Origin: a virus
DNA length: 22,347 nucleotides
Virus record (IMG/VR): IMGVR_UViG_3300047476_000904
Span: 1 to 22,347 of that record
Reading direction: 5' to 3' (one strand)
The notes under the pieces are model-generated. The model was not told the DNA's origin. It worked only from the letters and a program-made list of their open reading frames with translations, and searched no databases. Shown here piece by piece: positions 1 through 22,347 of the stretch; position 1 is the stretch's first letter, and the number at the start of each line of letters is the position of its first letter. A program made the translations under genes and the position numbers.

Positions 1-25
1 TACCGTCTAGCGTTGCTGTCTTCAT
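1..25 (-). CDS. Start of a leftward gene, cut by window edge
   Basis: An ATG at 25-23 on the minus strand opens a frame reading MKTATLDG before the window ends. It overlaps the stop of the upstream 69-aa gene by 4 bp (ATGA), and a GGAGG lies 7 nt before the ATG. The same arrangement joins the two genes before it, so a third member of this leftward operon is likely. Eight residues do not allow a function to be named. Confidence 0.5.
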
Positions 26-231
26 GCTGCATCCTCCGGCCATTCGTAACCGAACATCGCTATCAGTATGTCGCGCACTTGCTCTCTGTCGTGGCTGTCA
101 CCGTCGAAGGCTATGCGTGTGCGCTTCTTGTGTATCTCGGTCGCTGCCTTCACGTCGGCTAGCGTTACGCCCATTGGGTAGAGGCCATACGGTCCGTAAT
201 AGCTAAGCACGTAGGTGTAGAAGTCCGTCAT
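22..231 (-). CDS. Small hypothetical phage protein, 69 aa
   Basis: I do not recognise this protein. The frame can be extended upstream to 360, but the ATG at 231 is preferred: AAGGA sits 9 nt upstream, and the ATG overlaps the stop of the zinc-ribbon gene by 4 bp (ATGA), the usual sign of translational coupling. The N-terminus is aromatic (MTDFYTYVLSYYGPYGLYPMG), followed by a charged helical-looking stretch (about residues 24-60) and an acidic end (EWPEDAA). There is no signal peptide or clear membrane segment. It is the middle gene of a leftward operon that continues past the left edge, opposite in direction to the virion genes. That suggests an early or regulatory or host-takeover role, by position only. 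Confidence 0.6.
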   Translation of the reverse strand: MTDFYTYVLSYYGPYGLYPMGVTLADVKAATEIHKKRTRIAFDGDSHDREQVRDILIAMFGYEWPEDAA

Positions 232-431
232 GATGATGTCCTTTTTGGGTTGAGGTTTTTGAGGTCGGATATATCCGTTATGAGCATGTAGTTGGACTTG
301 TTGATTGGGGCTGTGCAGTATGTGACTGCGTGTGCCCGTGTGTCGCCGCAGTCTAGGCATGTAGTGTAGCCTAGGCGGAACCGTTCAACTGCGAACGGCG
401 TGTAGCAGTCTCTGCATAAGACCTGTGTCAT
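228..431 (-). CDS. Small zinc-ribbon protein, 67 aa
   Basis: The protein has two CxxC pairs, C6-C9 and C25-C28, separated by 15 residues. This is the classic spacing of a treble-clef or zinc-ribbon Zn site. Such tiny phage proteins may bind DNA, RNA or host transcription proteins; which one applies here is unknown. The ATG at 431 is chosen over the upstream ATG at 482 because GGAG lies 8 nt before it and the Zn site begins just after it. The ribosome-binding site lies inside a 16-bp palindrome at 435-450, so initiation may be controlled by a repressor or by RNA folding. It is the first gene of a leftward operon, about 65 nt downstream of the predicted start point of the promoter at 503-531. 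Residues after 36 show no motif I recognise. Confidence 0.7.
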   Translation of the reverse strand: MTQVLCRDCYTPFAVERFRLGYTTCLDCGDTRAHAVTYCTAPINKSNYMLITDISDLKNLNPKRTSS

Positions 432-434
432 TTC

Positions 435-450
435 CTTAACTCCAGTTAAG
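435..450. promoter_or_regulatory. 16-bp palindrome over the zinc-ribbon RBS
   Basis: CTTAACTCCAGTTAAG has 7-bp arms around a 2-bp centre. On the minus strand the centre supplies the GGAG of the ribosome-binding site. The related core CTTAAC-N4-GTTAAG recurs at 2302-2317, and a variant at 2329-2346, in the other regulatory region. It could be an operator, or an RNA hairpin that hides the RBS. Confidence 0.55.
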
Positions 451-502
451 CGTTTCGTGTTTGCACTGATGTGCGGGGTCATCGACGTCCTGCCGATTAT
501 TT

Positions 503-531
503 AAACTAGCAGAAAGTCCCTCTTATGTCAA
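503..531 (-). promoter_or_regulatory. Leftward sigma-70-like promoter for the zinc-ribbon operon
   Basis: Read on the minus strand, a perfect -35 TTGACA (531-526) is followed by a 17-bp spacer and a weak -10 TAGTTT (508-503). The spacer ends in TGC, an extended -10. Transcription would start near 496, about 65 nt before the zinc-ribbon ATG at 431. The spacer contains GAGGGACTT, which recurs once more 61 bp upstream, so the promoter may be regulated. Confidence 0.55.
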
Positions 532-598
532 ATGGAGGTGGGATTTGGTATTGTAGGACTTTGTGGAATGTTAGAAGTCCCTCATTCGTTTTCTAACA
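513..598. repeat. AAGTCCCTC direct repeats and TGTTAGAA inverted repeat
   Basis: AAGTCCCTC occurs at 514-522 and 575-583, exactly 61 bp apart. The inverse core GGACTTT lies between them at 556-562. TGTTAGAA (569-576) and TTCTAACA (591-598) are perfect 8-bp inverted arms with a 14-nt loop that contains most of the second copy. The first copy lies between the -10 and -35 of the leftward promoter, which suggests operator function. Confidence 0.45.
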
Positions 599-665
599 AT
601 ATGAGGATGGCTGGAGAGGCGCAGAAGTGTGCGGTTTTTTGGGGGTAGTAGTATAGTATAGTTTT

Positions 666-911
666 AAAGTTATAATGTAGTAGGGAAAATAGAGAGCCCG
701 GCACTTTTTGCCCTTCGCACTGCATAGAAGGGGTCGGACAGATGCGCACTGTCAAAAATCAAAATCCGGCTTCACAACCCAATAACTTTCTAACTTCCTA
801 CAATAGGGGTGTAAACCATTGAAAAACAAGGAAAACTAAAGTTATTGTTTTAAAGCCGCACCATAACTTTGCACTATTTTGCCAACTTTGCATTTTCTTG
901 TTGACTTTGCC
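666..911. repeat. ATAACTTT octamers and three 19-bp iterons
   Basis: The octamer ATAACTTT is present at 782-789 and 863-870, and its complement AAAGTTAT at 666-673 and 838-845, so orientation alternates. Copies two and three are part of a perfect 10-bp inverted repeat (CAATAACTTT 780-789, AAAGTTATTG 838-847, 48-nt loop). The fourth runs into three degenerate tandem units starting at 865, 884 and 903, exactly 19 bp apart, sharing (A/G)ACTTTGC and then ATTTT or TTTT. The surroundings are AT-rich. This resembles iterons next to a DNA-unwinding element. Confidence 0.45.
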
Positions 912-920
912 CATTTTGGA

Positions 921-944
921 CGTTAGGTTGAGTTCAACCTAACG
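921..944. repeat. Perfect 24-bp palindrome
   Basis: CGTTAGGTTGA (921-931) and TCAACCTAACG (934-944) are perfectly complementary 11-bp arms separated by GT. No T-tract follows on either strand, so it is unlikely to be a terminator. A dimeric protein-binding site or a cruciform is more plausible. It directly follows the third 19-bp iteron. Confidence 0.6.
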
Positions 945-949
945 GTCGG

Positions 950-996
950 GGCGCTCACCCAACCAGTTAGCTCAGGCGCTCACCCAACCAGTTAGC
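950..996. repeat. 22-bp perfect direct repeat, two copies
   Basis: Copies at 950-971 and 975-996 are identical over 22 bp (beginning GGCGCTCACC, ending CCAGTTAGC) and start 25 bp apart with a 3-bp gap. They sit between the 24-bp palindrome and the ACTATCA array. Perfect identity in a non-coding region implies either recent duplication or selection on both copies. Confidence 0.6.
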
Positions 997-1000
997 CCTT

Positions 1001-1126
1001 ACTATCACCGCAACTATCATGGACCACTATCACAGGTAGGTAACTATCACGTGGTTAAGGACTATCATGGATAAGTGACTATCATAGGTAGAACACTATC
1101 ATTGGTGACTATCATCACTTCTATCA
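1001..1126 (+). repeat. Array of nine ACTATCA repeats
   Basis: ACTATCA begins at 1001, 1013, 1026, 1043, 1061, 1078, 1095 and 1108, and a TCTATCA variant begins at 1120. All are in the same orientation, usually followed by C or T and often by GG. Start-to-start distances are 12, 13, 17, 18, 17, 17, 13 and 12, an almost mirror-symmetric series. The repeats are too short, and the gaps (5-11 nt) too small, for a CRISPR array. Iterons for a replication initiator, or an operator array for the neighbouring orphan gene's product, are the likeliest readings. Confidence 0.65.
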
Positions 1127-1169
1127 TAGATTAATTATGACAATCTTCGATTGACGTTAATTTGTTTTG

Positions 1170-1208
1170 TTTGTCCCCGAAGGGGACAAAGGGCGCGGAA
1201 AAATCCGC
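1170..1208. other. Two strong hairpins at the end of the repeat region
   Basis: TTTGTCCCC (1170-1178) and GGGGACAAA (1182-1190) form a 9-bp stem. Read on the minus strand the loop is C(UUCG)G, an unusually stable tetraloop. A second small hairpin, GCGGA-AAAA-TCCGC, follows at 1195-1208. No T-tract follows the first stem on either strand, so these may protect RNA ends or act as a barrier rather than as ordinary terminators. Confidence 0.5.
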
Positions 1209-1224
1209 ACCCCGACGCGGACGC

Positions 1225-1279
1225 AAAAAAAAACCCCCGCGACCCGAGGGCCGCGAGGCGGAGGCGCGGCGGAGCCGCG
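1225..1279 (-). terminator. Rho-independent terminator of the orphan leftward gene
   Basis: On the minus strand a GC-rich hairpin (1255-1238, stem CGCGGCC/GGTCGCG with one G-T pair, loop CTCG) is followed by CCCC-complement G residues and nine T residues (A tract at 1225-1233 on plus). A second hairpin, CGCGGC-TCC-GCCGCG, lies just before it (1279-1265). This sits 40-90 nt beyond the stop of the leftward gene ending at 1317 and would keep its transcripts out of the repeat region. Confidence 0.7.
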
Positions 1280-1316
1280 AGGCGGGAGGCGGGAGCCGAA
1301 ACCCCCGCCAGTTATG

Positions 1317-2192
1317 TTACGCCGCGAAATAGGCAGCAATCTTTTCAGCCAGACCGCGCAGCTTATCCTCGACCGCAGTAGATGGAGCGAACGAGCTTTC
1401 ATCATTATCGCCTAGCACTTCATCCATGCACTTGATGACATATTCCAGAGACTCGCCAAACTTCTCACCATTGGCAGGCTTAACGCGATTAGTCTTGGCT
1501 TGCATATAACCACCAGCGACAGCCGCAGGAGCCAGCTTATTAGCAATGTCGGTGGCAGACGGAACCTTGCCGAAGATTGGATTGTTGCCGCCTACGCACT
1601 TAACCTTGAGCGCCTTAGCTTGCTCGAGTAGCGTTTCATCGTCAGGAACAGGCAGACCTTGCAGCTCGAGATTGCCCCGAACCCGCTCGACCAGACCACG
1701 AGCCAGCTCATTAGGCGCGCCGTTATCATCGACCAACTCATAAGCGAGAGAAGCAGGCACTCCCACCGCTAGCACTGGAACAGACTTACCCTTGCGCGGG
1801 ACTTTAGCGGTAGTAATCTCAACAGGCGAACCAGCCCAACCAGCCGATGCGATAGTGAAGGCACGTTGAAACGCCATTTTATCAGCCGAGGACATCCCGC
1901 CCTCAATCCCGAAGTTATCAGCCACAGCGCGATACATAGCAGGCAGAAACTTGCCATCGGTAGAGCCATCTTCATGCCGCCGAGCCTTGAACATATCCTC
2001 GAGCAGACACACGCCGGAAACCTCATTGTCACCCGAACCATACGACCAGCGCATAGAGTAGAAACGATTGTCAGCGATACCCGAAGCCATCGTTGCGATG
2101 CCAGACTGAGCCATAGCCGAGCCATCGCGGAACATATCCACACCTTTTGAGATGGTAGAGGCATTCGATAAGAGCTTTGCATTTAATGTCAT
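1317..2192 (-). CDS. Orphan leftward protein of unknown function, 291 aa
   Basis: I do not recognise this family. The ATG at 2192 has AAAGGAA 7 nt upstream. The gene stands alone: it has its own promoter candidate (2245-2273) and terminator (1225-1279), and points away from the virion operon. The N-terminal third is Ser/Ala/Gly/Met-rich with MRWSYGSGDNEVSGVCLLED near residues 47-66. The middle (about 90-150) looks like a mixed alpha/beta domain (AFQRAFTIASAGW, SVPVLAVGVPASLAYEL). The C-terminal third (about 155-291) is helical and ends in a charged amphipathic helix. No signal peptide, membrane segment, nucleotide-binding motif or Zn site is visible. Its position beside the ACTATCA array makes a DNA-binding, copy-control or early-function role conceivable, but nothing in the sequence shows this. 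Confidence 0.75.
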   Translation of the reverse strand: MTLNAKLLSNASTISKGVDMFRDGSAMAQSGIATMASGIADNRFYSMRWSYGSGDNEVSGVCLLEDMFKARRHEDGSTDGKFLPAMYRAVADNFGIEGGMSSADKMAFQRAFTIASAGWAGSPVEITTAKVPRKGKSVPVLAVGVPASLAYELVDDNGAPNELARGLVERVRGNLELQGLPVPDDETLLEQAKALKVKCVGGNNPIFGKVPSATDIANKLAPAAVAGGYMQAKTNRVKPANGEKFGESLEYVIKCMDEVLGDNDESSFAPSTAVEDKLRGLAEKIAAYFAA

Positions 2193-2216
2193 TTTGTATT
2201 TCCTTTACTTGTGTTG

Positions 2217-2237
2217 CTGGCAGGACTTCCCCGCCAG
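2217..2237 (-). other. Small hairpin in the orphan gene leader
   Basis: CTGGC and GCCAG arms with a partly paired interior fold into a stem just 25 nt upstream of the ATG at 2192, before the ribosome-binding site. It may stabilise the leader or affect initiation. It is imperfect, so the call is tentative. Confidence 0.3.
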
Positions 2238-2244
2238 TGATTTA

Positions 2245-2273
2245 TTTATAGACCAGATAGACGCTTAGACCAA
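2245..2273 (-). promoter_or_regulatory. Leftward promoter candidate for the orphan gene
   Basis: On the minus strand TTGGTC (2273-2268), a 17-bp spacer and TATAAA (2250-2245) match sigma-70 spacing, with a weak -35 and a good -10. TGGTCTA occurs twice, 17 bp apart, overlapping the two elements, which could be a regulator site. The start point would lie about 45 nt upstream of the ATG at 2192. Confidence 0.4.
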
Positions 2274-2301
2274 ATCGACTTGATGAATTAAAACGGGAGA
2301 G

Positions 2302-2346
2302 CTTAACCACAGTTAAGACATCGCAGAGCCTAACCACAGTTAAGGC
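2302..2346. promoter_or_regulatory. Pair of CTTAAC-N4-GTTAAG palindromes, putative operators
   Basis: CTTAACCACAGTTAAG (2302-2317) is palindromic with 6-bp arms. TAACCACAGTTAAG is repeated exactly at 2304-2317 and 2331-2344, 27 bp apart. The second copy lies in a slightly imperfect palindrome (2328-2346, GCCTAAC/GTTAAGGC). Both resemble the palindrome at 435-450. They lie about 30-75 bp upstream of the leftward promoter candidate at 2245-2273. Confidence 0.55.
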
Positions 2347-2376
2347 ATAGCGCGACATGGCGCGAGGCAAGCGCAG

Positions 2377-2408
2377 CATAGAAAATAAAATCGGTCTGCT
2401 TCGCAGAC
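2377..2408 (-). terminator. Possible leftward terminator
   Basis: GTCTGC (2394-2399) and GCAGAC (2403-2408) form a perfect 6-bp stem with a 3-nt loop. Read on the minus strand it is followed by CGATTTTATTTTC, a broken T tract. It could stop leftward transcripts coming from the virion region. On the plus strand only ATTTGATT follows, which is weaker. Confidence 0.35.
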
Positions 2409-2657
2409 ATTTGATTAGGTTAAGTATTAGTGAAGTGGAGTGTAGGATTAACAGGGGTGGGGTGTATCGGATTGACTATACTGTTACCCTACCTACCCCC
2501 GACCCCCCTCTGGTGGCATGTTGTTACCCCACCACTACATACATACTATTTTGCATATTCGACGACGCACTTTTGAAAATCATACCCCCCACCCCCTCTT
2601 TTTCCAGCCACCGGTTCGCTGCCGCTTAATGCAGCCAGACCCCCCGTCGATGGTACC

Positions 2658-2686
2658 TTGACGTCCAAACCCCACGGGGGTATTAT
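2658..2686 (+). promoter_or_regulatory. Strong rightward sigma-70-type promoter for the virion operon
   Basis: TTGACG (2658-2663), a 17-bp spacer and TATTAT (2681-2686) each match consensus at 5 of 6 positions with ideal spacing. The start would be near 2693, giving a leader of about 147 nt before terS at 2840. It is the best promoter match in the region and points into the packaging and head genes. Confidence 0.6.
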
Positions 2687-2839
2687 TTTTGAACCGTTAT
2701 TTGACATTGCGGTACCGGTAGGGGTGGTGTTTCCCTCAGTTTGCGCCGCCCCTATTTTCCTCTTTCCTTCTCCCACCTACACTGCTACACGGCGTGCGCA
2801 TAAACTTATCTCAGCCTCCTACAAGCGGAGCTTACATAC

Positions 2840-3454
2840 ATGCCTATTATAAAAGCCGAACCGAGCACGGAGTATCCTGTGCCGTTTGACCTGTCCGATG
2901 AGGACTTCGATAATTTTGCGGACAAATTAGCATCCATAGGTAATACAGCAGAGCTGCTCGAGCAGCTTGGTGCCCCAGTCGAGTTGGCCAAGGAAAACGT
3001 CGAAGAAGAGGCAGCACTGCTAGATGCAGCCATCGACAACCAGAAAATAACACCATTACAGTCCAGCCTGCCAGCTGCCCTCGGCGCTGCGGCTTTCCTA
3101 CGTGCTTATGGCCAAGGCCGGGCGATGGATGCGGGTCAAGTACGCACTGCGCTGACTAATAAGCTGCTAGAGATTGCTGACTGCGGCGAGATTAAGTACG
3201 AGCTTAAGGCTATTGAGCTGCTTGGTAAGCACTCAGATGTGGGTCTGTTCACTGAGCGCAGTGAGATTAACGTCAATTATAACTCGCCCGAAGGTCTGGA
3301 GAAGGCCATTACGGACCGGGTCAAGCGCCTGCTGAATGCAGACGTCATAGATATGAAGCCACTGGGCATGGACCTCGACGAGGAGCTAGGCATCCTCGAT
3401 GCGGATTTTGAAGATATACTGGCTGATGAGCCCACCGAAGAGGTGGACGAGTGA
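2840..3454 (+). CDS. terS: Terminase small subunit (TerS), 204 aa
   Basis: TerS recognises phage DNA and hands it to the large terminase subunit for cutting and packaging. The clearest sign is the stretch KYELKAIELLGKHSDVGLF at about residues 119-138, close to the ELLGKHLGLF-type motif of Terminase_2-type small subunits, just before an oligomerisation-like helical C-terminus. The N-terminal 70 residues are very acidic, and the tail (about 165-204) is also Asp/Glu-rich. That is unusual for a DNA-binding protein and may contact TerL. The ATG at 2840 has GGAG 9 nt upstream. Its stop overlaps the GTG start of terL by 4 bp (GTGA), the classic terS-terL pairing. The call rests on the short motif plus position, so it is good but not certain. 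Confidence 0.75.
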   Translation: MPIIKAEPSTEYPVPFDLSDEDFDNFADKLASIGNTAELLEQLGAPVELAKENVEEEAALLDAAIDNQKITPLQSSLPAALGAAAFLRAYGQGRAMDAGQVRTALTNKLLEIADCGEIKYELKAIELLGKHSDVGLFTERSEINVNYNSPEGLEKAITDRVKRLLNADVIDMKPLGMDLDEELGILDADFEDILADEPTEEVDE

Positions 3455-4968
3455 ACATCACGCTCAAAGACATACCCAAGATACTCCCAAAACTCTCACC
3501 CGCAGAGCAAGAACAGCTGCTCGCTGAGCTAGATAAGCTGGAGAAGCTCAAGACGCAGGAGTTGGCGCGCAAGCGGTTCCTGAAGTTCGTAGAACAAGTT
3601 TGGCCGACATTCATTGGAGGTAGGCACCATGCGAAAATGGCAGACGCCTTCGAACGCGTTGCTCGTGGTGAGTGCAAACGCCTCATTATTAATATGCCAC
3701 CGCGACACACAAAGTCGGAGTTCGCCTCTTACCTGCTCCCTGCATGGTTCCTCGGACTCAACCCCCATAAGAAGATTATCCAGTGCTCGCACACAGGTGA
3801 GCTAGCTGTCGGCTTTGGCCGTAAAGTACGTAACTTGGTGGATACAGAAGTGTACCACGAGACGTTTCCTGACCTGAAGCTAGCTGCAGACTCTAAGGCG
3901 GCTGGCCGGTGGAATACATCGAAAGGGGGTGATTATTTCGCTATCGGTGTGGGCGGTGCGGTTACCGGTAAAGGTGCTGACGTGCTCATCATTGATGACC
4001 CGCACTCAGAGCAGGAAGCTGCGCTGGCGGAAGTTAACCCAGATATCTACGACAAGGCATATGAGTGGTACACCTCTGGTCCACGTCAGCGTCTCCAGCC
4101 GGGCGGTGCCATTATTGTCGTGATGACGCGGTGGTCGAAGCGCGACCTGACCGGGCAGATATTAAAAGACGCAGCTGCTAACGACAGCCTCGGTGAGTGG
4201 GAAGTCATTGAATTTCCAGCGATTTTGCCTAGCGGCAACCCGCTGTGGCCTGAGTTCTGGGAGTTAACCGAGTTAGAGAAGGTCAAGCGCGACGTCCCTA
4301 ACAGTAAGTGGATGGCGCAGTACCAGCAGAACCCGGTGTCAGAAAGCGCCGCCATTGTTAAGAGAGAGTGGTGGCAGGAGTGGGAGAGTGATGACCCGCC
4401 CAGCTGTGACTTTGTGCTGCAGGTGTGGGATACGGCCTTTGAAAAAACTAGTAGGGCGGATTACTCCGCATGCACGACATGGGGTGTGTTCTACCACCCT
4501 GATGACAACGGCATAACGCAGGCCAACATCATACTACTTAATGCCTTCCGTGACCGCATGGAGTTTCCAGAGCTGAAGCGTGTGGCTGTCGAAGAGTATA
4601 AAGAGTGGCAACCAGACGGCGTCATAATCGAGAAAAAGGCATCAGGTGCACCGCTCATCTACGAGATGCGGGCTATGGGCATACCAGTGCAAGAGTTTAC
4701 GCCTACCCGGGGTAACGACAAGATTTCCCGTCTCAACGGTGTTGCAGACATATTCGCATCAGGCCGGGTGTGGGCACCAGCAACGCGCTGGGCGGAAGAA
4801 GTGATTGACGAAGTGGCAGAATTTCCCGCTGGCTCTAACGATGACTATGTTGATACAGTATCCATGGCCTTGCATAGGTTCAGGCGTGGGGGGTACGTGA
4901 CTACTAACCTAGACGAGCCCGAAGATATCGTGTACTTTAGGTCGAACCGCAATCAGGGGTATTACTAA
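3451..4968 (+). CDS. terL: Terminase large subunit (TerL), ATPase and nuclease, 505 aa
   Basis: TerL is the motor that pumps DNA through the portal and cuts the concatemer. The ATPase domain carries the Walker A-type loop PPRHTKSE (83-90), Walker B DVLIIDDPHSE (177-186), and the coupling motif MTRWSKRDLTG (225-235). The RNase H-like nuclease domain has VWDTAF (D327), IIEKKASG (E394) and DDYVDTVSMAL (D465, D466, D469), the expected acidic triad. Its length is typical. Note that Walker A has Thr where many relatives have Gly (PPRHGKSE). Translation starts at a GTG that overlaps the terS stop by 4 bp. The first 40 residues are a Leu/Glu/Lys helix that could contact TerS. The stop overlaps the next ATG by 1 bp (TAATG). 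Confidence 0.96.
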   Translation: MNITLKDIPKILPKLSPAEQEQLLAELDKLEKLKTQELARKRFLKFVEQVWPTFIGGRHHAKMADAFERVARGECKRLIINMPPRHTKSEFASYLLPAWFLGLNPHKKIIQCSHTGELAVGFGRKVRNLVDTEVYHETFPDLKLAADSKAAGRWNTSKGGDYFAIGVGGAVTGKGADVLIIDDPHSEQEAALAEVNPDIYDKAYEWYTSGPRQRLQPGGAIIVVMTRWSKRDLTGQILKDAAANDSLGEWEVIEFPAILPSGNPLWPEFWELTELEKVKRDVPNSKWMAQYQQNPVSESAAIVKREWWQEWESDDPPSCDFVLQVWDTAFEKTSRADYSACTTWGVFYHPDDNGITQANIILLNAFRDRMEFPELKRVAVEEYKEWQPDGVIIEKKASGAPLIYEMRAMGIPVQEFTPTRGNDKISRLNGVADIFASGRVWAPATRWAEEVIDEVAEFPAGSNDDYVDTVSMALHRFRRGGYVTTNLDEPEDIVYFRSNRNQGYY

Positions 4969-12199: not shown

Positions 12200-12937
12200 A
12201 TGCAGCAGGAACAAAGCTACGACTTAGCTGGTAAGAGCGTCTTCATCGCTCTTCCAGCGTACGACTTCAAGGTGTCCTTGAAGCTAGCTGTTTCTCTTGC
12301 ACGCTTTGCTCAGCAGGCTGCGGCACACGGAGTTGAACTTCACATCGGCAGCATATGCGGGTGTTCGGTTGTTTCTCGTGCGCGCAACCTGCTGGCGCAA
12401 GACCTGCTTGAGTCCAAGTGCGACTACCTCATGTTCATCGACTCGGACATTAACTTCGAGCCAGAAGACGTATTCCGCCTCATGGCGTGGGGTACAGACC
12501 CTAAGAAGGGTATTGTAGCTGCGGTGCCCCGTACGCGCAGCGAAACCAAAACTTATATTGCTACTCTCGACCACGACGAGAACAACCAACTCACCATGAA
12601 CCAGATGGGCCTAGTACGTGCAAAGCGCGTGGCGACAGCCTTTATGCTCGTGCGTCGTGAAGTGTTTGAGCAGATGTCAGAGGCCCACCCAGAGTGGAGC
12701 TACTACGACACGCGGTCCGACCGCATGCTAAACGCTATGTTCGACTTCCTCGTCACCGACGAAGGTTACATCGGAGAGGACTTCCTCTTCTGCGACCGTG
12801 CACGGGAACTTGGTTTTGAAGTGTGGGTAGACCCCACAATCACACTGGGCCACATGGGCGTACAGGAATATATCGGCAACTACGGCGATGATATCCTCTA
12901 CCCGATGGTTGTCCCCGCACAGAAGGACGCAGCATAA
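12200..12937 (+). CDS. GT-A fold glycosyltransferase, 245 aa
   Basis: This is predicted to transfer a sugar from a nucleotide-sugar donor. VFIALPAYDFKVS (14-26) is a nucleotide-binding first strand. YLMFIDSDINFEPED (77-91) holds the DxD metal motif (D81, D83). GYIGEDFLFCDRARELGFEVWVDP (189-212) contains the GED motif of the likely catalytic base (E193/D194), and TLGHMG supplies a late His (H218) often used as metal ligand. The protein is soluble, without signal or membrane segments. It lies within the virion genes, so a virion protein (capsid decoration, fibre) or a host surface sugar could be the acceptor; the sequence cannot decide. Start: ATG 12200, with a weak GGGTGA site and 3 nt after the preceding stop. 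Its stop overlaps the next start (TAATG). Confidence 0.85.
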   Translation: MQQEQSYDLAGKSVFIALPAYDFKVSLKLAVSLARFAQQAAAHGVELHIGSICGCSVVSRARNLLAQDLLESKCDYLMFIDSDINFEPEDVFRLMAWGTDPKKGIVAAVPRTRSETKTYIATLDHDENNQLTMNQMGLVRAKRVATAFMLVRREVFEQMSEAHPEWSYYDTRSDRMLNAMFDFLVTDEGYIGEDFLFCDRARELGFEVWVDPTITLGHMGVQEYIGNYGDDILYPMVVPAQKDAA

Positions 12938-21395: not shown

Positions 21396-22347
21396 CCACT
21401 CTTTCAAGCATCCTTCCTCCGGTAAGTCTATCGACTGCTTCAGGCACACTACCTGCAAGCAGCGGTGGTACAGGGTTAATTTCACCCGGCGCTTCAGGCA
21501 ACGTCCTTATTAGCGATGGCACAGGTTGGACATCTGGTGCGGCAGCAACTGCGTACCCGCAGAACATCCAGAGCGGCAACTACACGCTGGTTCTGGGTGA
21601 CGCAGGCAAGCAGATTTATTCAGCCAACACAGGCGCGCAGACAATCACGATACCAACCAATGCGTCGGTTGCGTTTCCGCTTGGGACGTTGATTACGATT
21701 GTGAATATGGGCACTAACAGTATCTTGCTTAGTGTTGCGGGAGTTTCTGTTTTTAATAACGGAAACGCAAGTGCGTTCAGCAGCCCACTAGTACCACCCG
21801 CTAATTCCGTGCAGATTTTAAAAACAGGCACAAACTCTTGGAATGCTACGTTTGGTACTTTCGTTGCCCCTACATTTACATACCTCATGGTTGCTGGCGG
21901 TGGTTCGGGTGGTTCTAGTAATGGCGGCGGTGGCGGGGCTGGCGGATACGTAACTGGCACAGCCTCCCAATCAGGGACTCTAACAATAACTGTTGGTGCT
22001 GGTGGGACAGGTGGCTCTACCGTAAGCACTAACGGCACTAACTCATCTATAAGCAGCATTGGTACCGCAGCGGTAGGCGGCGGATACGGTGGGAATATTT
22101 ACAACACTATCATTGGCGCAGTAGGTGGCTCTGGTGGCGGTGGCCGCGGAAGCTCTGTCGGTGGAGCGGGGACTGCTGGGCAAGGATTTGCGGGCGGTAC
22201 TGCTTATTCAGGCTACGGCGGCGGTGGCGGAGGCGGCGCTAGTGCCGCAGGTGTTAACGGGGATTTTTATGCTGGCGGCAAGGGCGGCGATGGACTTTCT
22301 TATTCAATTACAGGAACGGCGGTTACTCGTGGCGGCGGTGGCGGTGG
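21392..22347 (+). CDS. Second fibre/Gly-rich fusion protein, partial (window edge)
   Basis: The ATG overlaps the stop of the Gly-rich gene by 4 bp (ATGA), and the frame stays open to the window end for 318 codons. Residues 1-50 contain SSGGTGLISPGASGNVLISDGTGW, and about 55-105 contain YPQNIQSGNYTLVLGDAGKQ and NASVAFPLG. Both parallel parts of the preceding fibre (413-437 and 601-642). From residue 166 on, TYLMVAGGGSGGSSNGGGGGAGGYVTG starts a Gly-rich domain like that of the previous gene. So it joins a fibre-type stem with a Gly-rich head in one chain, a paralogue of both neighbours. It lies at the same end of the virion cluster and is probably a second receptor-binding protein. Confidence 0.8.
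   Translation, partial: MTTLSSILPPVSLSTASGTLPASSGGTGLISPGASGNVLISDGTGWTSGAAATAYPQNIQSGNYTLVLGDAGKQIYSANTGAQTITIPTNASVAFPLGTLITIVNMGTNSILLSVAGVSVFNNGNASAFSSPLVPPANSVQILKTGTNSWNATFGTFVAPTFTYLMVAGGGSGGSSNGGGGGAGGYVTGTASQSGTLTITVGAGGTGGSTVSTNGTNSSISSIGTAAVGGGYGGNIYNTIIGAVGGSGGGGRGSSVGGAGTAGQGFAGGTAYSGYGGGGGGGASAAGVNGDFYAGGKGGDGLSYSITGTAVTRGGGGG

Follow-up and report, generated by a model that had tools for sequence, protein, structure and literature searches.

A heptamer array at the divergent hub of uncultured ~60-kb phages is a candidate iteron-like part of a replication origin

SaPI Rep uses its C-terminal domain to recognise the short iterons of its origin, and Cch, a DUF927 protein, is related to SaPIbov1 Rep and belongs to the same helicase group (PMC7581432). 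The alpha protein of phage P4 is a multifunctional primase-helicase whose winged helix binds origin repeats, and the pRN1/BIP-1 origin is a stem-loop of ~100 nt located 3' of the primase-helicase gene (PMC4234260). In iteron plasmids (RK2/TrfA, P1 and F), the origins consist of direct repeats beside an unwinding element (PMC4980987), and the parS site of pSM19035 is composed of consecutive heptads whose contiguity matters (PMC9499535). For the phage group considered here, we found no described origin in the literature.

The window, i.e., the whole stretch of 22,347 nucleotides that was analysed, is a fragment of an uncultured phage. Positions below are those of the window unless a relative is named. 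For the relative G009 (62,177 bases), a circular map was drawn from an exact terminal overlap of 127 bases, which resembles an assembly k-mer. The late genes, from the small terminase onward, and the early genes run in opposite directions and diverge at a hub of ~2.4 kb. The late operon starts with the small terminase candidate (TerS; 2840-3454, plus strand), named by its position, followed by the large terminase (TerL; 3451-4968, plus strand). The first early gene (228-440, minus strand) encodes a zinc-ribbon-like protein of ~70 aa that serves as a family marker; the other early products include an AAA ATPase, a DUF2201 protein, PolA, an exonuclease, an SNF2-type helicase and, near the end of the operon and ~20 kb from the array, a primase-helicase (944 aa in G009). 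The hub itself contains a gene of 291 aa (1317-2192, minus strand), an orphan in the initial annotation and here called the hub gene, with a strong intrinsic-terminator-like hairpin at its 3' side (1232-1258, minus strand). The array is situated between this terminator and an AT-rich stretch toward the early operon. As a separate observation, phrog_1574 (glycosyltransferase-like) is represented by two separate genes, one among the late genes of the window (12200-12937) and one among the early genes of G009 (48672-49433).

The array (1001-1126, minus strand) comprises nine heptamers, which read TGATAGT in the sense of the early genes and ACTATCA on the plus strand. Eight exact ACTATCA copies start at 1001, 1013, 1026, 1043, 1061, 1078, 1095 and 1108, and the outermost unit (1120-1126) is TCTATCA, or TGATAGA in the early-gene sense; the spacers are 5-6 nt long toward the ends and 10-11 nt long inside. 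The initial annotation had reported nine copies at these places, gaps of 12, 13, 17, 18, 17, 17, 13 and 12, and a non-coding setting, all of which proved correct to the base. Outside the array, both strands of the window hold a single further ACTATCA copy, at 22106. In 100 shuffles of the whole window, the heptamer occurred 1.8 times on average and eight times at most, never reaching nine. In 1000 dinucleotide shuffles drawn from the local non-coding region, or from the 990-1136 segment alone, no 7-mer exceeded three copies per 130 bp, compared with the eight observed. Such a shuffle check had been proposed with the initial annotation, and sequence of matched composition never attained the observed repeat count: a cluster of short direct repeats of this kind in non-coding DNA exceeds chance. 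Palindromic CTATCA...TGATAG sites were not enriched genome-wide, and the TGATAGT arrays found in other viral contigs looked mostly like simple tandem repeats with a period of 9, 12 or 15.

The same annotation had stressed the near-mirror order of the gaps. This order is present in the window, but 48 of the 1680 possible gap orderings (2.9%) are equally symmetric, and 4.3% have all long gaps contiguous and internal, making the symmetry weak evidence. In the relatives, the gap series in the early-gene sense are 12,12,17,17,17,17,13,12; 12,16,17,18,17,12,13; 12,13,17,17,12; 13,13,13,12; and 12. Of the six distinct arrays, four have short gaps outside and long gaps inside, while exact symmetry is not conserved, and we rejected mirror symmetry as a functional feature.

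No direct DNA relatives of the window were present among phage records. In every sequenced clade relative that spans the region, the array occurs at the same place and in the same orientation, so that the comparison suggested earlier upholds the conservation of the repeats and their place but not of their number. Nine units are found in the window and G001, eight in G009, G010, G011 and G012, six in G005/G006, five in G004 and two in G002. Between the window and G001, none of the 63 heptamer positions is substituted, compared with 8 of 52 positions in spacers of equal length (p=0.0013). G006 lacks exactly three units, namely those that two TCCATGATAGT copies bracket in the window, as would be expected if they were lost by slippage. 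The core-proximal unit is located ~465-500 bp from the TTGACA box (526-531, minus strand) across the relatives; this box is a conserved -35-like element of the putative promoter of the early operon. The AAAGTTA/TAACTTT sites (666-870; at 870-864, 844-838, 789-783 and 672-666) keep nearly fixed distances from the same box in all five clade members compared. Since the core-proximal unit and the AAAGTTA sites hold nearly fixed positions, the array appears to grow away from a rigid core.

Of the 13 clade contigs, the window counted among them, six (G001, G003, G007, G008, G009 and G011) have an end in the array or at most ~130 bp from it, and two of these, G007 and G008, with hub genes about 50% identical, both end at the TGAT of the first unit. 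The cause may be a copy number that varies in the population, or the ends may be genuine DNA ends.

The DNA around the array is rich in further elements. The conserved AT-rich hub core (559-949) is retained at 73-81% even where the neighbouring module has been swapped. It overlaps three 19-bp repeats with CTTTGC (865-921, plus strand) and a 24-bp palindrome, CGTTAGGTTGA-ac/gc-TCAACCTAACG (921-944), whose symmetry survives a paired T/A to A/T change seen in G001 and G004; G002 has other hairpins in its stead. The array is flanked by a tandem 25-bp element in two copies with a CTAACTGGTTGGGTGAGCGCC core (950-999, minus strand), which is present in all array-spanning clade members and absent from the hub-swapped relatives described below. 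Palindromic operator-like CTTAAC-N4-GTTAAG sites precede the early operon (435-450) and the hub gene (2302-2317). AT-rich, easily melted DNA adjoins the repeats: when nearest-neighbour stability was computed for 100-bp windows, the least stable one fell in the array or within ~120 bp of it in all eight array-bearing hubs. No Rfam match was obtained in window positions 1-3000. Two other structures were noted in passing. A perfect hairpin, TTTGTCCCC-GAA-GGGGACAAA, is located at 1170-1190, and its loop is reverse-complemented between the window and relatives. Upstream of the hub gene, at ~2450-2720, the minus strand is rich in G runs; the G009 counterpart is a long uninterrupted G run, and the G005, G010 and G012 contigs begin in or near this stretch.

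Does the array belong to the hub gene or to the phage backbone? Four records (L173, L174, L176 (G027) and L178) carry an unrelated gene of ~183 aa in place of the 291-aa gene and keep the AT-rich core as well as the terminase, with identities of 87-92% for TerS and 93-97% for TerL; for G027, the identity to clade members amounts to 96-97% in the AAA protein and 80-91% in the PolA fragment. In L173, L174 and L176, one or two TGATAGT units lie between the terminator of the new gene and the palindrome, and some of them directly precede a degenerate copy; the arrangement TGATAGT-N5-TGATAGT is found in none of the four records. Because units are kept despite the swap of the hub gene, the array follows the phage backbone rather than the orphan, and because only two units are present in G002 and one or two in the hub-swapped relatives, a large array is not essential. 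More broadly, the slot between the terminase and the early operon (compared in the window, L173, L174, L176, G015, G017, G019-G021, G023, G025 and G026) is variable and is occupied by a number of protein types (167-291 aa) that seem unrelated to one another; none of those scanned belonged to a known family.

Another important question is which protein could read the heptamers. The primase-helicase was studied in G009, as its gene would fall outside the 22-kb window fragment. It consists of a primase part, a self-loading helicase of DUF927 type (E=6.7e-29) and a C-terminal winged helix. Its sequence matches the solved structures of SCCmec Cch (5dgk, E=1.5e-12) and SaPIbov1 Rep (8tch, 1.4e-7). 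A model of the C-terminal 305 residues, with a confident winged helix at about residues 210-280 and weak elsewhere (mean pLDDT 62.8), matches Cch (6.7e-7), SaPIbov1 Rep (5e-5) and also the winged-helix protein TcpK. The predicted recognition helix starts with IAY in the TGATAGT phages, with IGY in G008 and with NY or NF in other members, a suggestive difference that is confounded with phylogeny. As all proteins co-vary across the family, a binder cannot be singled out by co-variation, and we rejected this approach for choosing one. From the domain content and the model, the primase-helicase appears to be the best candidate binder of the array.

Taken together, the data lean, if only slightly, toward the array being an iteron-like initiator-binding cluster at one side of a replication origin, probably bound by the winged helix of the primase-helicase. 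The initial annotation had offered iterons of an origin as one of three options, and this is the one best supported. According to the mechanism we propose, the primase-helicase would bind the TGATAGT heptamers through its winged helix, assemble at the array, open the adjacent AT-rich DNA and load outward; replication would then start at the hub and proceed in both directions toward the point where the two operons converge. An iteron-like origin is consistent with where the array lies, with the unstable DNA nearby, with the strand switch and skew minimum, and with the kind of initiator that is encoded. Local enrichment, invariant heptamers, the same place in relatives and motif turnover at the corresponding spot (see below) also speak for it, as does an early operon encoding PolA, helicases, an exonuclease and the primase-helicase. 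Against it stand the existence of arrays with only one or two units and the spacing of 12-18 bp, which is neither constant nor helically phased. In most genomes, the cumulative GC skew reaches its minimum within or close to the hub, where the coding strand switches; we rejected GC skew as independent proof of an origin, since it is confounded with gene orientation and transcription, and the hub gene's own GC skew tracks its transcription.

The zinc-ribbon gene, used as a marker, led to 80 related loci, and several full hubs of more distant members have, in the equivalent position, a different short word clustered on the same strand: AATGTTC in G023 (nine copies), TGTTCGTTTT in G020, TTGTTCG in G021, TTTGTTACG in G025 and CTAACATTAC in G017. 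These words are mostly of the (A)ATGTT[A/C] type, and shuffles seldom gave more than four copies; between this type and TGATAGT there is only a resemblance. In G023, the AT-rich stretch is flanked by forward copies toward the terminase and by inverted copies toward the early genes. The hubs of G015, G019 and G024 contain no clear repeat cluster, and that of G026 has only a weak one of another kind. Dispersed palindromic operator-like sites were compared in the window, G009, G015, G017, G019-G021, G023, G025 and G026. They occur 4 to 19 times, are largely restricted to the hub and the early region, and are subgroup-specific: besides CTTAAC-N4-GTTAAG of the window clade (in G009 at 1388, 58614, 61076 and 61716), we found CTAACA-N-TGTTAG, TACTGTC-N-GACAGTA, GTTATAC-N3-GTATAAC, CTAGGAC-NN-GTCCTAG and CCTGACC-NN-GGTCAGG. 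The palindromes differ between most subgroups and look like the sites of a family-wide early regulator with fast-changing specificity. As a tentative conjecture, which we hold to be possible rather than probable, the place of the origin would be fixed in the family, its recognition word (AATGTTC, TAATGTTAG, TTTGTTACG, TGATAGT) would be rewritten fast in step with the winged helix of the distant primase-helicase, and the copy number (1 to 9) would drift; the origin would then act as a specificity barrier between co-infecting relatives, served by a SaPI-Rep-like initiator acting far from its own gene.

The operator-like palindromes also bear on another explanation, namely, that the array is regulatory: a phage or host transcription factor would bind it cooperatively and, by looping or spreading, control the early promoter at a distance of about 470 bp, or else insulate the hub gene against the early operon. 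The hub is itself a regulatory region of divergent layout, a dispersed operator-like site is likewise present in the hub and early region of every phage of the family, and some long spacers of the array resemble half of the clade operator (CTTAACC versus CTTAAC-N4-GTTAAG). However, the nearest conserved promoter-like box is ~470 bp away, the copy number varies widely, and the array motif is clearly unlike the dispersed operator in G020, G021 and G023; because the motifs differ in these genomes, operators and arrays seem to evolve apart. We give the regulatory explanation a modest chance.

It is rather unlikely that the array is a packaging (pac) site, at which the small terminase would bind the repeats and headful packaging would start. 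The TerS gene lies at the opposite end of the hub, hub-swapped relatives with a TerS of 87-92% identity retain units, and the six contig ends at the array, of which two coincide to the base in the first unit, could be real DNA ends. These ends are, however, equally explained by copy-number variation breaking the assemblies, and several contigs run straight through the array. Moreover, the hub gene stands between the array and TerS, which are about 1.7 kb apart, and short-repeat arrays also occur in relatives whose TerS is only 30-50% identical to that of the window clade.

The hub protein had been put forward in the initial annotation as a protein to be assayed for binding, and a gene with its own adjacent site would be a simple arrangement: the hub gene adjoins the array, and both are conserved together in most of the clade. 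We consider this improbable, as the terminator separates the orphan from the array and the swapped relatives keep one or two TGATAGT units, those of G027, L173 and L174 beside the unrelated ~183-aa gene. The product has no Pfam or PHROG match and no match among phage records, and its fold has no convincing PDB or BFVD match (best BFVD E=2.5e-3, an uncharacterised viral protein); these inconclusive fold searches yielded no DNA-binding fold. To a similarly small degree, the array might be a neutral or selfish expansion of short repeats in non-coding DNA, free of any binding function, as the volatile copy number and the G006 deletion spanning two TCCATGATAGT copies, a product that slippage would give, might suggest; yet the heptamers are invariant while the spacers mutate, position and orientation are conserved, and different motifs occupy the same place in distant relatives. 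The partition-like complex offered in the initial annotation, i.e., a centromere of ParB/ParR/omega type maintaining a low-copy element, is very improbable: the array of 7-bp direct repeats recalls the pSM19035 parS heptads, but its heptads are not contiguous (spacers of 5-11 bp), no ParA- or ParB-type protein was detected among the early proteins scanned, and the gene set looks lytic.

If the origin reading is true, the array shows where DNA replication begins in a widespread group of uncultured ~60-kb phages, remote relatives by terminase of the pelagiphages HTVC023P and HTVC027P, and ties that origin to an initiator helicase of SaPI/SCCmec type. The series of one to nine units and the clade-specific words at a fixed locus would then offer a test of the joint change of initiator and origin. 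If the reading is wrong, what remains is a well-conserved regulatory array of ordinary interest.

How, then, does the locus compare with the known systems? The nearest isolated or named relatives, the Pelagibacter phages HTVC027P and HTVC023P and the phages DSL-LC04 and 023Pt_psg01, share 51-57% identity in the large terminase, but their gene layout near TerL differs from that of the window, and the array motifs were not enriched in the first 6 kb of the loci fetched. An origin of pRN1 type was rejected, because only an 11-bp terminator hairpin is found at the convergent junction in G009, G006 and G008. The parS site of pSM19035 (omega/ParB) is similar in its 7-bp direct repeats, seven to ten per site, but these are consecutive and read WATCACW, whereas the present units are separated by 5-11 bp and read ACTATCA. 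The iteron plasmids RK2/TrfA, P1 and F share the direct repeats next to an unwinding element; here, in contrast, no Rep of those families was seen, and the window's hub contains no DnaA box. Classical plasmid iterons are equally spaced in helical phase, whereas the present gaps are 12-13 and 17-18 bp, and owing to this uneven spacing we do not class the locus as a classical plasmid iteron array. Satellite phage P4, compared by description, likewise has a primase-helicase with a winged helix, its alpha protein differing in a TOPRIM-type primase. The closest likeness is to SaPIbov1 Rep and SCCmec Cch, both in the DUF927 helicase with a C-terminal winged helix, matched by sequence and model, and in their origins, where multiple short direct repeats occupy non-coding DNA close to an AT-rich stretch. 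In SaPIs, the origin immediately follows rep, whereas the repeats here are ~20 kb from the primase-helicase gene, which is located at the other end of the early operon and is followed by no repeat cluster, only by the 11-bp terminator stem; this distance counts against a SaPI-like origin, and as the repeats are not beside the initiator gene, we do not file the locus as one. In further contrast to SaPI and Cch, the primase is fused to the helicase, and the heptamers, as putative sites, are one-directional and irregularly spaced. Most likely, the arrangement is one already known in kind and newly found in this phage group.
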